The notes under the pieces are model-generated. The model saw only the letters and a list, made by a program, of their open reading frames with translations, made no database searches and was not told the DNA's origin. Below are positions 4,592-12,715 of a stretch of DNA of 14,471 nucleotides, piece by piece. The position numbers and the translations under genes were made by a program. Each line of letters begins with the position of its first letter. Position 1 is the first letter of the stretch. The DNA is taken from positions 1 through 14,471 of the forward strand of contig DFJP01000113.1 in the NCBI GenBank assembly GCA_002373085.1, read 5' to 3'. The DNA is from Caryophanales bacterium UBA3668. Its GTDB lineage: Bacteria > Bacillota_I > Bacilli_A > RFN20 > CAG-826.

Positions 4592-5188
4592 CTAAATCTT
4601 ATGACGTCCTTCTAATGCTTTGGATAATGTTAATGGATCTACATAATCGAGATTTCCTCCGATTTGTAGACCATACGCTAATCGAGTGACTTTAATGTTA
4701 TATTGTTCGATTAGCTTTGCTAAATACATTGATGTTGTTTCTCCATCAACAGTTGGATTAGTAGCGATAATCACTTCTTCGAAATGACCTTCTTCTAATC
4801 TTTTTAAAAGTGCATTGATATTGAGTGCTTCTGCATTCATTCCTTTGGATAAAGATAATTCACCATTAAGGACATGATATTGTCCGTGGAATGAATCGCT
4901 CTTTTCAATTGAGATAACATCTTTTGGATAAGAAACCACCATGATGATGTTTTCATCTCTATTTTTGTCATCACATATATAGCAGCCATCAATATCTGTA
5001 ATCATTCCGCATGTTGGGCAGAAATGAATATTCTTTTTTAAGTCTTTTAGTGATTGGGCAATGGAGTCTAAGTCTTCTTCAGAGAAATCTAAAAGAGAAT
5101 ACGCCATCCTTTCAGCGCTCTTTTTACCAACTCCTGGGAGTTTATAAAGATTCTCTATTAAATTATCTAAAGACTTCAGTCTTTCCAT
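4592..5188 (-). CDS. recR: Recombination mediator protein RecR
   Basis: RecR works with RecO (and RecF) to load RecA onto SSB-coated DNA during gap repair. The 198-aa protein contains an N-terminal helix-hairpin-helix (LPGVGKKSAERMAY, 17-30), a C4 zinc finger (C57, C60, C69, C72), and a Toprim domain from about residue 79 with VVSYPKDVISIE, HGQYHVLNGE and NPTVDGETTSMY. The loop after HVLNGE reads LSLSKGMNAE instead of the common SPLDGIGPE, a modest lineage difference. It sits between ybaB (2-bp gap) and tmk (12-bp gap), as in the conserved dnaX-ybaB-recR cluster. It ends with TAG, so UAG is a true stop here. Confidence 0.97.
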   Translation of the reverse strand: MERLKSLDNLIENLYKLPGVGKKSAERMAYSLLDFSEEDLDSIAQSLKDLKKNIHFCPTCGMITDIDGCYICDDKNRDENIIMVVSYPKDVISIEKSDSFHGQYHVLNGELSLSKGMNAEALNINALLKRLEEGHFEEVIIATNPTVDGETTSMYLAKLIEQYNIKVTRLAYGLQIGGNLDYVDPLTLSKALEGRHKI

Positions 5189-10397: not shown

Positions 10398-10496
10398 TGT
10401 AGGGATTTTAATGGAAAGCCATACATTAAAGCCCGCAACAAAAAAGATAGTTTAGTTTTTGTGGTGTGCGGATCCCCGGAAACACGAAATCTATAA
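10398..10496 (+). pseudogene. Internally deleted comFA fragment (zinc finger joined to broken Walker A)
   Basis: One open frame reads CRDFNGKPYIKAR, then NKKDSLVFVVCGSPETRNL and a stop. The intact ComFA downstream has LNGKPYCRRC (20-29) and KKGIDSLVFAVCGSGKTE (71-88). The two matches sit in the same order and frame, but about 40 residues between them are missing. The Walker A lysine is lost (GSGKT became GSPET) and the zinc-finger cysteines after NGKPY are gone. At DNA level the Walker A half is identical over 17 bp (from 10446, matching 11771) and similar beyond. It has no start codon or RBS. It lies directly upstream of the RBS of the 107-aa gene, so it may have been left when that gene entered. 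Confidence 0.75.
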
Positions 10497-10511: not shown

Positions 10512-10835
10512 ATGAGCAAGAAAAAGATTTATAACAAACATTTAGAAAGAGGAAGATTTTATATACATAGTGACGGACATGGTGGACATCCAGCACTTCT
10601 TTATAAGAAGAGCGATAAGAAAAATATCTATTTTATAGTAGTATTTACGTCTTCTTCGGGTCCAAAAAGAAAACAGCTAAAACACAGCATTGAACCTATT
10701 AAGATAAAAGTGTCTTTTGTACATAATACACCAAAGATTAGTTCTAGGCGTGAACTAGGTAGAAATCCAATGAAGGGATTAAAAATAGACAAAGAAGACA
10801 AGCCTCTTATTGAGACTATAAAAAGAAAAAAATGA
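10512..10835 (+). CDS. Unrecognised small basic protein, 107 aa
   Basis: I do not recognise this protein. It has a good RBS (AAGGAG, 10501-10506) 5 bp before the ATG and codon use like a real gene. The sequence is Lys/Arg-rich. The N-terminal half has RGRFYIHSDGHGGHPALLYK followed by a hydrophobic strand, YFIVVFT, as in a small beta-barrel; the C-terminal half is basic (SSRRELGRNPMKGLK, ending KRKK). No signal peptide or membrane segment is visible. It stands alone between two decayed comFA pieces, and its last codons begin the segment that is repeated upstream of the intact comFA. Such isolated small genes are often mobile or accessory cargo. A nucleic-acid-binding role or a toxin-like SH3-barrel role is possible but only speculation. 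Confidence 0.7.
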   Translation: MSKKKIYNKHLERGRFYIHSDGHGGHPALLYKKSDKKNIYFIVVFTSSSGPKRKQLKHSIEPIKIKVSFVHNTPKISSRRELGRNPMKGLKIDKEDKPLIETIKRKK

Positions 10836-10945
10836 TTCACAAGACCACTTAATGATCTCCATATGCGAATCACTACATATATTAAACCAAAAGGAAGGAG
10901 ATGATGCAATATAGAAACTTGTAAATGTCCAATACGTGGCAAATA
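10820..10945 (+). repeat. Diverged direct repeat, copy 1, of the comFA leader and 5' end
   Basis: By hand alignment this segment matches 11459-11583 at about 79% over about 120 bp with one 1-bp gap; the first 20 bp are identical. It includes the leader stem arms (TGATTC and GAATCA), the RBS and the first comFA codons. The left edge falls within the last codons of the 107-aa gene. Confidence 0.85.
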
Positions 10946-10958
10946 TTATAAAAACGTA
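10911..10958 (+). pseudogene. Decayed start of a second comFA copy
   Basis: In the frame of comFA this reads I-E-T-C-K-C-P-I-R-G-K where the intact gene reads M-E-S-Y-K-C-P-I-C-G-N. The ATG has become ATA and the second zinc cysteine has become Arg, while the RBS (GGAAGGAG) survives. Similarity fades after about 15 codons, where the GC-rich non-coding block begins. It is not translatable as ComFA. Confidence 0.75.
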
Positions 10959-10959
10959 A

Positions 10960-10985
10960 AAATAAAAAGCCCCGTTAATGGAGCT
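10960..10985 (-). terminator. Strong minus-strand terminator
   Basis: In minus sense AGCTCC-N6-GGGGCT (10968-10985) forms a 6-bp stem with one G-U pair, followed by TTTTTATTTTT. It marks minus-strand transcription, although no minus-strand protein gene lies here. Confidence 0.7.
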
Positions 10986-11034
10986 GCACAGTTTCCTGTG
11001 AGTCGGCATCAAACTAGTGATGGCCACGACCATA
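10963..11034 (-). ncRNA. Candidate small structured RNA, minus strand
   Basis: In minus sense this stretch folds into successive hairpins. The first is ATGG/CCAT. The second is GG(C)CATC pairing with GATGCC and a bulged C. The third is CACAG-GAAA-CTGTG with a GNRA tetraloop (10987-11000). The last is the terminator stem at 10968-10985. Hand-counted GC is 52% at 10981-11040, against about 22% in a comparison line of comFA. A modest promoter, TTGCTT-17-TTAAAT (11040-11068), would start it near 11033. It could instead be the 3' part of the larger RNA encoded just upstream on the same strand. I recognise no family. Confidence 0.45.
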
Positions 11035-11076
11035 GTCACATTTAACCAAAAACATACAAAATAAGCAAGAAGCAAA

Positions 11077-11101
11077 TAAAAAAACAAGGATAAACCTTGT
11101 T
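11077..11101 (-). terminator. Minus-strand terminator of the candidate ncRNA
   Basis: In minus sense AACAAGG-N5-CCTTGTT (11083-11101) is a perfect 7-bp stem followed by a run of T (11078-11082 and beyond). In plus sense no T-run follows the stem, so the direction is clear. Confidence 0.8.
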
Positions 11102-11412
11102 AGTTGTTTTGGACTCCATCGACACATTATGTTTCCCTCTAGTGTTCTAGGCGGGTGTCATCACTGCTTTAGTTGAGTTTATTAAGCAGCTGGTGTTCTG
11201 TGGTCATTAATCACAAGTTGCCTTGTTCGCCATGTCTGGTGCCGGTCCTTACGCATACAAGTCCTAACTCTGCAACTGGTAATATCGATTGATATCAGTG
11301 AGGCTATTACCATTGAATCTATGATTCATAAATAAGCGATCTAAACATAGATTTATTTAACAATCCCGACTAGGTAATCAACGTCCCTATGATCGCTTGC
11401 CATACGGCTGTC
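11077..11412 (-). ncRNA. Candidate large structured ncRNA with pseudoknot, minus strand
   Basis: About 330 nt with no credible reading frame, GC about 46% by hand count over 11101-11280, and a promoter and terminator on the minus strand. Perfect helices (plus coordinates) are 11316-11323 with 11346-11353 and 11334-11341 with 11391-11398, 8 bp each and crossing, hence a pseudoknot. Further helices are 11278-11284/11305-11311 (7 bp), 11216-11221/11272-11277 (6 bp) enclosing 11222-11226/11257-11261, 11164-11169/11184-11189, 11121-11125/11155-11159 enclosing CTAG/CTAG, and a small 5' hairpin at 11399-11408. Family unknown. The comF-secA neighbourhood recalls the raiA-motif RNAs reported near raiA in Bacillota, but I cannot match the sequence to that consensus. 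Confidence 0.55.
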
Positions 11413-11416
11413 TATT

Positions 11417-11445
11417 ATTAAAACAAAACAAAAGAATTAATGCAA
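11417..11445 (-). promoter_or_regulatory. Putative promoter of the minus-strand ncRNA
   Basis: Minus-strand TTGCAT (11440-11445), a 17-bp spacer, then TTTAAT (11417-11422). The -10 is 5/6 and the -35 3/6. Transcription would begin near 11410, just before the first predicted helix and divergent from comFA. Confidence 0.4.
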
Positions 11446-11458
11446 TATAAAGTCTATT

Positions 11459-11583
11459 GAAAAGAAAAAAATGATTCACCAGACCAACAATGGATCTCAC
11501 CTGCGAATCATTGCATATATTAAAGCAAACGATAGGAGATAAATCAATATGGAATCTTACAAATGTCCTATTTGTGGCAACAC
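11459..11583 (+). repeat. Direct repeat copy 2: functional comFA leader and 5' end
   Basis: This is the copy linked to the intact comFA and partner of 10820-10945, offset by 638-639 bp. The two copies flank the ncRNA block, so recombination between them could delete it. Confidence 0.85.
11470..11512 (+). promoter_or_regulatory. comFA leader hairpin
   Basis: Perfect 8-bp arms AATGATTC (11470-11477) and GAATCATT (11505-11512) enclose a 27-nt loop, 37 bp upstream of the comFA ATG. The inner six pairs are kept in the decayed copy 1 (10833-10838 with 10867-10872) although the loop has changed. This suggests a conserved leader structure. No clear plus-strand promoter is seen; TATAAA at 11446 is a weak -10 candidate. 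Confidence 0.45.
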
Positions 11584-12715
11584 CGATATACATTCTATTG
11601 GCTACTTAAATGGCAAACCTTACTGCCGTAGATGTGTCTCTTTTCGTGGTGAAGAAGTAGAACATAAACCATCATATCCTAAGAAAGCACCTATCCATCT
11701 TGAATATGAACTATCCTCAGAACAAAAAGAATTATCAGATAAACTTGTTGAGAACTATAAAAAGGGAATAGATAGTTTAGTTTTTGCTGTGTGTGGATCT
11801 GGCAAAACAGAGATTGTTTTAAAACTGATTAAATATGTAATAAATTGTGGCGAAAAAATAGCGTTTGCGTTGCCTAGAAGAGACGTATGTATTGAATTAT
11901 ATAATAGGTTAAGAAATGTATTTAAGTTTAACAAGGTAATAAGTCTATATGGTGGTCACACAAAAGAAAAAGAAGGCGACATTATTGTTTTAACGACGCA
12001 TCAATTATATCGATATAAAAATTACTTTTCTTGCATTGTTCTTGATGAGATAGACGCTTTCCCATTCAAGGATGATCCTGTACTGCACTCTATGTTTTTT
12101 AATTCTCTTAATGGCCATTATGTAATGATGAGCGCAACTCCATCAGAAGAAGTAATAAAACATTTCTCAAAAACAGGGAAAGATATATTGAGATTAGAGA
12201 CGAGATTCCATCGCCACCCTCTACCTGTTCCTAAGATAGTTATTGGCAATGAATTCACTATGTTTTTAAAGCTCATCTATTACATTAATAAATATAAAAA
12301 GAGCAATAAACCTGTCTTCATATTCGCTCCAACTATCAAAGAATGTGAATCGCTTTACAAATTAATTTCTATATTTGATAAAGGTGGTAATTATGTCCAT
12401 TCGAAAAGACAAAATCGAAAAGAAATTATTCAAGGGTTTCGAGATGGAATATATCGATTCTTGGTTACTACTTCAGTTTTAGAAAGAGGCGTAACGGTGA
12501 AGGATTTGCAGGTAATTGTGTATAAATTTCACACTTTTGTATACGATAAAGGCACTTTAATTCAAATAGCAGGACGTGCCGGAAGAAAACTAGATGCCCC
12601 AGAAGGAGAGGTGATTTTCATTGGCAAAGAATTTACTAGAGAAGCTCAAGGAGCAATCGATAGCATTAACTCCAGCAACAAGGCATTGCAAGATATGCTT
12701 CAAGGAAATAAATGA
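11549..12715 (+). CDS. comFA: Competence DNA-uptake helicase/translocase ComFA
   Basis: ComFA is a DEAD-box-like ATPase on the cytoplasmic side of the membrane that helps pull transforming single-stranded DNA through the ComEC channel. The 388 aa begin with a four-cysteine zinc finger (C6, C9, C26, C29), followed by the first RecA-like domain with Walker A CGSGKT (82-87) and DEID (166-169), and then SATP (195-198). The second RecA-like domain has TTSVLERGVTV (307-317) and QIAGRAGR (339-346). It is shorter than the roughly 460 aa of Bacillus ComFA. The RBS AGGAG (11534-11538) is 10 bp from the ATG. comFC overlaps its 3' end. Decayed pieces of the same gene lie at 10398-10496 and 10911-10958. 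PriA-like helicases are larger, so ComFA is the best call. Confidence 0.94.
   Translation: MESYKCPICGNTDIHSIGYLNGKPYCRRCVSFRGEEVEHKPSYPKKAPIHLEYELSSEQKELSDKLVENYKKGIDSLVFAVCGSGKTEIVLKLIKYVINCGEKIAFALPRRDVCIELYNRLRNVFKFNKVISLYGGHTKEKEGDIIVLTTHQLYRYKNYFSCIVLDEIDAFPFKDDPVLHSMFFNSLNGHYVMMSATPSEEVIKHFSKTGKDILRLETRFHRHPLPVPKIVIGNEFTMFLKLIYYINKYKKSNKPVFIFAPTIKECESLYKLISIFDKGGNYVHSKRQNRKEIIQGFRDGIYRFLVTTSVLERGVTVKDLQVIVYKFHTFVYDKGTLIQIAGRAGRKLDAPEGEVIFIGKEFTREAQGAIDSINSSNKALQDMLQGNK

Follow-up and report, generated by a model that had tools for sequence, protein, structure and literature searches.

Introduction

The cow-rumen-1 motif (RF02946) is an orphan 61-nt Rfam motif that reportedly goes back to a study of 2017, and a search of the open-licence literature for its name or accession found no paper. 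Integron gene cassettes are small one-gene units that stand in a row before a fixed gene and differ between species; integrons are marked by an integrase gene and attC sites. The raiA motif RNA, or ModT (RF03072), is a structured Bacillota RNA that contains two pseudoknots and is often found next to comFC (PMC11706538). Type III toxin–antitoxin systems (ToxIN, CptIN, TenpIN) combine a small protein gene and a structured RNA with a terminator between them, the RNA type follows the protein subgroup, and the antitoxin RNA lies upstream on the toxin strand as tandem repeat units of 34–36 nt (PMC5086642). ROOL, GOLLD and OLE are described as large ornate RNAs (PMC12286853).

The RNA described here lies in a window of 14,471 nt, the whole stretch of DNA that was analysed. 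It shares with cow-rumen-1 the complete 61-nt motif, the same hairpin and the same conserved 3' strand, but has one domain rather than three and a location in a probable mobile cassette, and its P1 helix, pseudoknot and 3' hairpin fall outside the Rfam model. Like raiA, it is a structured RNA of Bacillota; unlike raiA, it occupies the strand opposite comFA and gave no RF03072 match at E up to 1. Searches for raiA in 20 relatives found none, with the controls equally silent. As in type III systems, the cassettes considered below join a small protein gene to a structured RNA whose type tracks the protein subgroup; however, the cassette RNA runs convergent with the gene, whereas theirs precedes the toxin gene on one strand and is parted from it by a terminator, a direct-repeat search found no tandem short repeats in 11077–11412, and the cassette protein shows no recognisable homology to toxins. 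Like integron cassettes, the units that have gathered before comFA are small, hold one gene each and vary from species to species, although their repeats carry the comFA 5' end and no attC-like site was seen by eye. Finally, the three-domain relatives of this RNA resemble ROOL, GOLLD and OLE in being ~1 kb long, richly structured and stand-alone, yet they string homologous domains in tandem along what is predicted to be one chain, and the array that was tested matched none of these families in Rfam.

Identity and Boundaries of the RNA

Judged by comparison with its relatives, the block at 11077–11412 (Table 1) is a real structured minus-strand ncRNA and a one-domain, divergent relative of cow-rumen-1, and we regard its identity and structure as reported here as close to certain. 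As originally predicted, the block holds no credible gene: no ORF of at least 60 aa lies inside it, and the minus-strand ORFs of 102 and 68 aa that touch its ends have no Pfam match at E 0.1. Its GC content, once put at about 46%, measures 40.5%, compared with 34.3% for the window and 29%–32% for the flanks. The minus-strand terminator was found where expected (11101–11083, with a T-run), whereas a consensus scan reported no promoter near 11417–11445; read by eye, the pair TTGCAT-N17-TTTAAT nevertheless makes one plausible. Promoter spacing would place the 5' end near 11410, and transcription as a separate RNA is predicted with high confidence. A leader similar to that of the window was found beside other cassette RNAs.

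The Rfam scan that had been proposed, with raiA, tmRNA, ROOL and OLE foremost, was run on 10900–11600 (701 bases); at E up to 1 it found none of these, and cow-rumen-1 was the sole match of any kind (11221–11282, 40.4 bits, E 7.2e-8). The alignment covers the motif at full length and its hairpin, in which two pairs are non-standard (four v signs in the helix line). Since the score stays below the gathering cut-off of 53.4 bits, at which level the window has no family match at all, we file the RNA as a divergent relative of cow-rumen-1 and not as a member. The earlier statement that it matches no known family was thus half right. The dense helices, previously taken as the mark of an ncRNA, do not serve as such, because the minimum-energy fold of the block is ordinary (z −0.68; 22 of 100 shuffles do equally well), so the argument has to be comparative. 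It is homology and covariation that support the structured, bounded minus-strand RNA of the original prediction, which foresaw neither the three-domain relatives nor horizontal transfer nor cassettes with a convergent ORF.

Table 1. Positions of the features discussed, in window coordinates.
Feature	Position	Strand	Basis or remark
Copy of comFA codons around Walker A	10442..10474	+	87.9% identical to 11767-11799
orf107, a cassette ORF from a large unnamed family	10512..10835	+	205 homologues; no Pfam, NCBIfam or PADLOC match
Type a element, hairpin and T-run, convergent with orf107	10829..10880	-	
Type b element (segX), second structured RNA candidate	10968..11051	-	85-93% identical DNA at 8 other comFA loci
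Intrinsic terminator, 7-bp stem and T-run	11076..11101	-	terminator scan
Single-domain cow-rumen-1-like ncRNA (type c), ~330 nt	11077..11410	-	R1 covariance model; 97% identical copy in G445
Remnant of lost ORF105, last codons K-N-K-D-K-P-C-stop	11080..11103	+	overlaps RNA terminator; homologue P0142 ends NKDKPC
Hairpin presenting the pseudoknot loop, 11184-11189 with 11164-11169	11164..11189	-	three both-side-changed pairs in singletons
Pseudoknot, GUUGA 11378-11382 with UCAAC 11172-11176	11172..11382	-	invariant in 4 aligned singletons; compensation in domain C
Cow-rumen-1 (RF02946) core, below Rfam cut-off	11221..11282	-	model 1-61 complete
P1 helix, 11391-11398 with 11334-11341	11334..11398	-	two compensated pairs in singletons
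Putative promoter TTGCAT-N17-TTTAAT in leader-like repeat	11417..11445	-	read by eye; not flagged by scan
Type a element without its ORF, adjoining intact comFA	11468..11518	-	direct repeats D1 and D3; fold
Intact comFA	11549..12715	+	helicase domains

Three-Domain Relatives

A scan yielded 25 loci as comFA relatives, 24 of them in records of Erysipelotrichaceae, Bacillales or Bacilli and one in Lachnospiraceae; several come from rumen or reticulum. RF02946 was matched in 15 of the 21 genomes of these relatives, in 26 of 116 genomes from the family of G011 (23 with arrays, 3 with a singleton only), in 4 of 395 from its class and in none of 14 controls, the family and class searches having used stricter filters that lose weak matches. 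Single motifs number six in all (the window, G002, G014, G435, G445 and G465). Elsewhere the motif is tandem with a spacing of 291–343 bases and forms the centre of a ~300-nt domain. Three motifs are present in 29 of the 33 arrays read and five in another three; the remaining array, which stops at a contig end, has two. Profiles of the positions A, B and C separate all 87 units, the same units from which they were built, and the five-motif arrays run A-B-A-B-C (L095), A-A-A-B-C (L089) and B-A-B-C behind a cut first unit (L074); a second, three-unit array of L095 was left uncounted because it is the L026 array itself. Of the 29 arrays, 22 have a promoter-like pair ahead of A and one has such a pair inside, 19 have a strict terminator after C (27 a T-run) and none has one inside, and each array is therefore read as one ~1.1-kb RNA. 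The usual form of cow-rumen-1 in this bacterial family is predicted to be a single three-domain (A-B-C) RNA of this length with homologous domains, whereas the window has only one motif. One array scanned against Rfam gave nothing but cow-rumen-1 at a meaningful score. Some genomes, namely G013 (L026, L088, L095), G002 (L096) and G463 (L064, L079), hold two or three such arrays, each of three or five domains and apart from the others; two arrays lie ~1.1 and ~1.7 kb apart in G002 and G013. No conserved neighbour gene is common to the 12 three-domain loci compared, the most widespread cluster occurring in four, so an ORF partner is not a feature of the whole family.

Covariation and Structure

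Covariation across homologues, a check set beforehand, proved very strong. The alignments of domains B and C comprise 26 of the 29 three-unit arrays (L056, L064 and L066 were left out). For domain C the RNAalifold consensus has 57 pairs, 37 with changes on both sides. Counted separately, 97.9% of cells are paired and 218 differ on both sides (54.5 in shuffles), and covariation scores 0.425, compared with 0.159 for shuffled and at most 0.109 for slid alignments. The consensus of domain B has 34 pairs, 24 of them with both-side changes. In domain C, the loop of the last hairpin pairs with an element of the GUUGA type that follows the 5' strand of P1, at all five positions in 22 of the 26 rows and at four in the other 4. 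The variants AUUGA/NCAAU and ACUGA/NCAGU (6 rows) and GUUGN/NCAAC (3 rows) amount to compensation at two positions, with compensatory changes in 9 of 26 rows, U-G intermediates in four and no mismatches there; as both strands were located by loose patterns, only these two variable positions are informative.

The whole ~178-nt domain is recognised in the window by R1, a 178-nt covariance model made from 22 domain B sequences without any singleton (22 of 29 arrays, leaving out L056, L064, L066, L087, L090, L091 and L094). The match spans model positions 1–178 and runs on the minus strand from 11400 to 11218 (35.9 bits), although several inner-hairpin pairs do not form. All six singletons are matched end to end with internal skips, at E-values (54.5 kb searched) of 1e-13 for G465, 1e-9 for G002, 4e-9 for G445, 9e-9 for G014, 9e-8 for the window and 3e-7 for G435. 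With RF02946 the other five score 48.2–58.6 bits; four of them reach the cut-off (54.0–58.6) and G445 stays below it at 48.2. The G002 singleton has TTGCAT-N17-TATAGT, which is like the putative promoter of the window.

Two crossing 8-bp helices had been proposed for the window RNA. One of them, P1, exists and is largely kept in the singletons, where G465 has a single mismatch and G002 one mismatch as well as two gapped pairs, and the helix equivalent to it by alignment covaries in domains B and C. The other (11316–11323 with 11346–11353) is not conserved, losing 2 of 8 pairs in G445, 6 of 8 in G002 (5 of these 6 by deletion) and 3 of 8 in G465. The RNA has a pseudoknot, as claimed, but the supported one joins 11378–11382 to 11172–11176. 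The singleton alignment behind these comparisons has four rows, two of them nearly identical. The hairpin that presents the pseudoknot loop is absent from the shorter singletons G435 and G014.

Horizontal Transfer

The RNA and leader of the window (11079–11448) are 97.0% identical to G445 over 371 bp, a match that ends at the leader beside comFA, whereas the flanking genes are only 75.3% (rpiB), 67.8% (comFA) and 72.1% (secA) identical. The names rpiB, secA and xpt are our assumed assignments, made by recognition of the sequences; those of comFA and comFC agree with Pfam domains. This contrast between the cassette and its neighbours implies that the RNA moves horizontally. Mis-binning is no explanation because the flanks lie on the same G445 contig, whereas a chimeric assembly of that contig is a possible source of the identity. 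The remaining singletons are 70%–77% identical to the window RNA over the matched stretches, so the 97% does not reflect ultra-conservation. By this comparison the one-domain RNA has moved horizontally, and we consider it likely that the window copy is part of a mobile cassette. RNA of the window type was found in 3 of 26 comFA loci (the window, G014 and G445), some loci beginning inside comFA. Phage and plasmid records, as well as two exact patterns in a viral collection, gave no matches. R1 also matched other comFA loci (best 24.0 bits, E 0.0005, in L021); these matches, which in six loci lie at one offset ~1255–1263 bases behind the start of the secA match, were judged by their position to be chance in coding sequence.

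Cassettes in Front of comFA

Upstream of comFA, several genomes carry rows of small units with a copied comFA leader and first codons. In the window such rows are seen at 10442–10474, 10821–10942 and 11460–11800, and others occur in L004, L013, L015, L018 and L022. The duplicated leader reported on both sides of the block is indeed there (10821–10942 and 11460–11580), and the codon copy at 10442–10474 was probably left by cassette accretion. Among 17 partial comFA copies the protein match stops at codons 84–88 in 13 and at codons 79, 73, 36 and 21 in the others, one further copy being cut by its contig; the common stop looks like an attachment site in Walker A.

The small cassette ORFs encode about 98–146 aa, are lysine-rich by eye and have 205 and 542 homologues for two members. 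Eight representatives gave no match in Pfam, NCBIfam or PADLOC, no PDB sequence match was found, and the structure models (mean pLDDT 39.3 and 45.9) are too low in confidence to predict a fold, be it the ToxN/MazF-like endoribonuclease fold or another. When the four longest ORFs between rpiB and comFA were surveyed at 17 loci, only three ORFs in all exceeded 150 aa: a YhcG/DUF1016 PDDEXK nuclease (L006, 4853–5845, within the comFA array), an ORF that starts alike (L017) and an unnamed 474-aa ORF (L013). Another nuclease gene of this kind lies at 2120–3160 of L085, beside a singleton RNA.

The small ORFs are often followed by convergent structured elements that end in T-runs and have a common leader, TATTAAAYCAAA, a leader pattern being present near 41 of 64 ORFs, not always at the expected place. 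From its arrangement, the window RNA can be assigned to these cassettes of a small ORF and a head-on structured element, whose terminator overlaps or abuts the end of the ORF. The type b element is convergent with an ORF of ~134 aa where the cassette is complete, and this ORF is absent from the window. Elements of types a and b form conserved hairpins in which compensated pairs are scarce (1 of 15 for a and 2 of 22 for b). Element type and ORF subfamily go together (of 60 ORFs, 31 are typed), a correlation as strong being reached in none of 10000 permutations, in which kinship was not controlled; it may come from shared descent only. The patterns behind this count were strict and missed two type a elements, one type b that was counted as d, and one type c just beyond the distance limit; ORF fragments were kept in the table.

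L018 (~4888–5100) and the window (10943–11100) have the same type b element and a ~28-nt remnant, followed by type d in the former and type c in the latter. RNA elements thus appear to have been swapped at this junction. The G435 singleton adjoins xpt; there, cassettes of ORF105, the RNA and orf107 (L083, 6576–6782 and 7286–7867) stand beside xpt, whose 3' end is duplicated, and accretion is consequently not limited to comFA.

ORF105 and the Convergent RNA

ORF105 stands head-on with the cow-rumen-1-like RNA and abuts its terminator in G435 and G002 and, in a broken form, in G445; in all three its last codons form the terminator stem. It was not seen beside the other three singletons, namely the window, where just those last codons remain and also encode the terminator of the RNA, G465, and G014, where the contig ends. 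Among the matches listed, 36 of 120 ORF105 relatives have an NK[DGAV] C-terminus (41 of 120 have NK and one further residue), which are the residues expected if the last codons are an AACAAGGNY terminator stem, these relatives being known as proteins only. ORF105 was matched in 21 of 146 genomes; in these 21 most matches have other C-termini, and only 2 have the type c RNA beside the ORF by R1, which speaks against a general pairing.

Proposed Function and Alternatives

The function proposed as most likely for the window RNA is to act as the partner of a small protein of the defence or addiction type. As a whole, the best explanation is a mobile one-domain RNA paired with a convergent ORF as a defence or addiction cassette, to which we give a probability of about 50%. 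Transcription would start at the promoter within the repeated leader, and the RNA would fold through P1 and the GUUGA/UCAAC pseudoknot and might, like an RNA antitoxin, bind or restrain the product of the convergent ORF, which is of the ORF105 family. The pair would persist as a cassette for defence or addiction. The window would have lost the ORF save for its terminator-forming last codons and retained the RNA, as expected of a harmless or protective partner. For the parts taken separately, a functional RNA–protein pair has slightly less than an even chance, and an antitoxin-like action is rather doubtful. The neighbourhood suggests a defence or addiction role: the G002 singleton adjoins a TIR-domain gene with a weak ThsB match, that of G465 a YhcG PDDEXK nuclease gene matching PDC-S02, a candidate family of PADLOC, and a nuclease of this type also occurs in the array of L006. 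Other findings speak against the proposal: few comFA loci carry the RNA, it seldom accompanies ORF105, the shorter singletons are without the pseudoknot loop, and the three-domain RNAs have no constant neighbour at the 12 loci compared.

The strongest competitor, which we take to be quite possible if somewhat under an even bet, is that the RNA acts in trans on its own and hitch-hikes in comFA cassettes, the convergent ORF being an unrelated neighbour. The three-domain RNAs, which stand alone at 12 loci, must act in trans, and half of the six singletons have no ORF105 alongside. Yet the other half have it, broken in one case, with the same convergent geometry at the terminator, the ORF105 end fits the terminator stem in many relatives, and the geometry recurs between different RNA elements and ORFs of other subfamilies. 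Replacement of tmRNA was rejected because tmRNA scored above the cut-off in 18 of 20 relatives. Replacement of 6S RNA is conceivable; Rfam found 6S RNA in none of 20 relatives but in only 5 of 14 controls, and RF02946 itself is matched in only 26 of the 116 family genomes under filters that miss weak matches.

That the RNA regulates comFA or the cassette genes in cis or as an antisense RNA from a divergent upstream position is improbable: it does lie in the comFA leader region with a putative promoter pointing away from comFA, but it is absent from most comFA loci, and the examined stretch holds no comFA for three of six singletons (G002, G435 and G465). A decayed, non-functional copy of the three-domain RNA is more improbable still, for although the window has the lowest Rfam score of the singletons and has lost the ORF, P1, pseudoknot, 3' hairpin and terminator are all intact, the near-identical G445 copy points to recent spread, and about equal scores with the B and C profiles, at only 20 bits, argue against a fresh single-domain fragment.

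Conclusions

A broader and rather speculative reading is that the cassettes represent a new class of mobile pairs of a small protein and a structured RNA, in which the RNA terminator is written into the last codons of the protein. Such sub-kilobase cassettes would integrate at gene ends, regenerating a piece of the target gene at comFA and, in G435, at another gene, and the cow-rumen-1 lineage would also exist as a stand-alone chromosomal RNA of three or five domains.

The comFA cassette array offers a natural laboratory for the gain, swap and loss of protein–RNA pairs. With a large three-domain form, a one-domain form that is mobile and a candidate protein as its partner, what was an orphan Rfam motif is now a defined RNA family whose function can be tested by simple co-expression.
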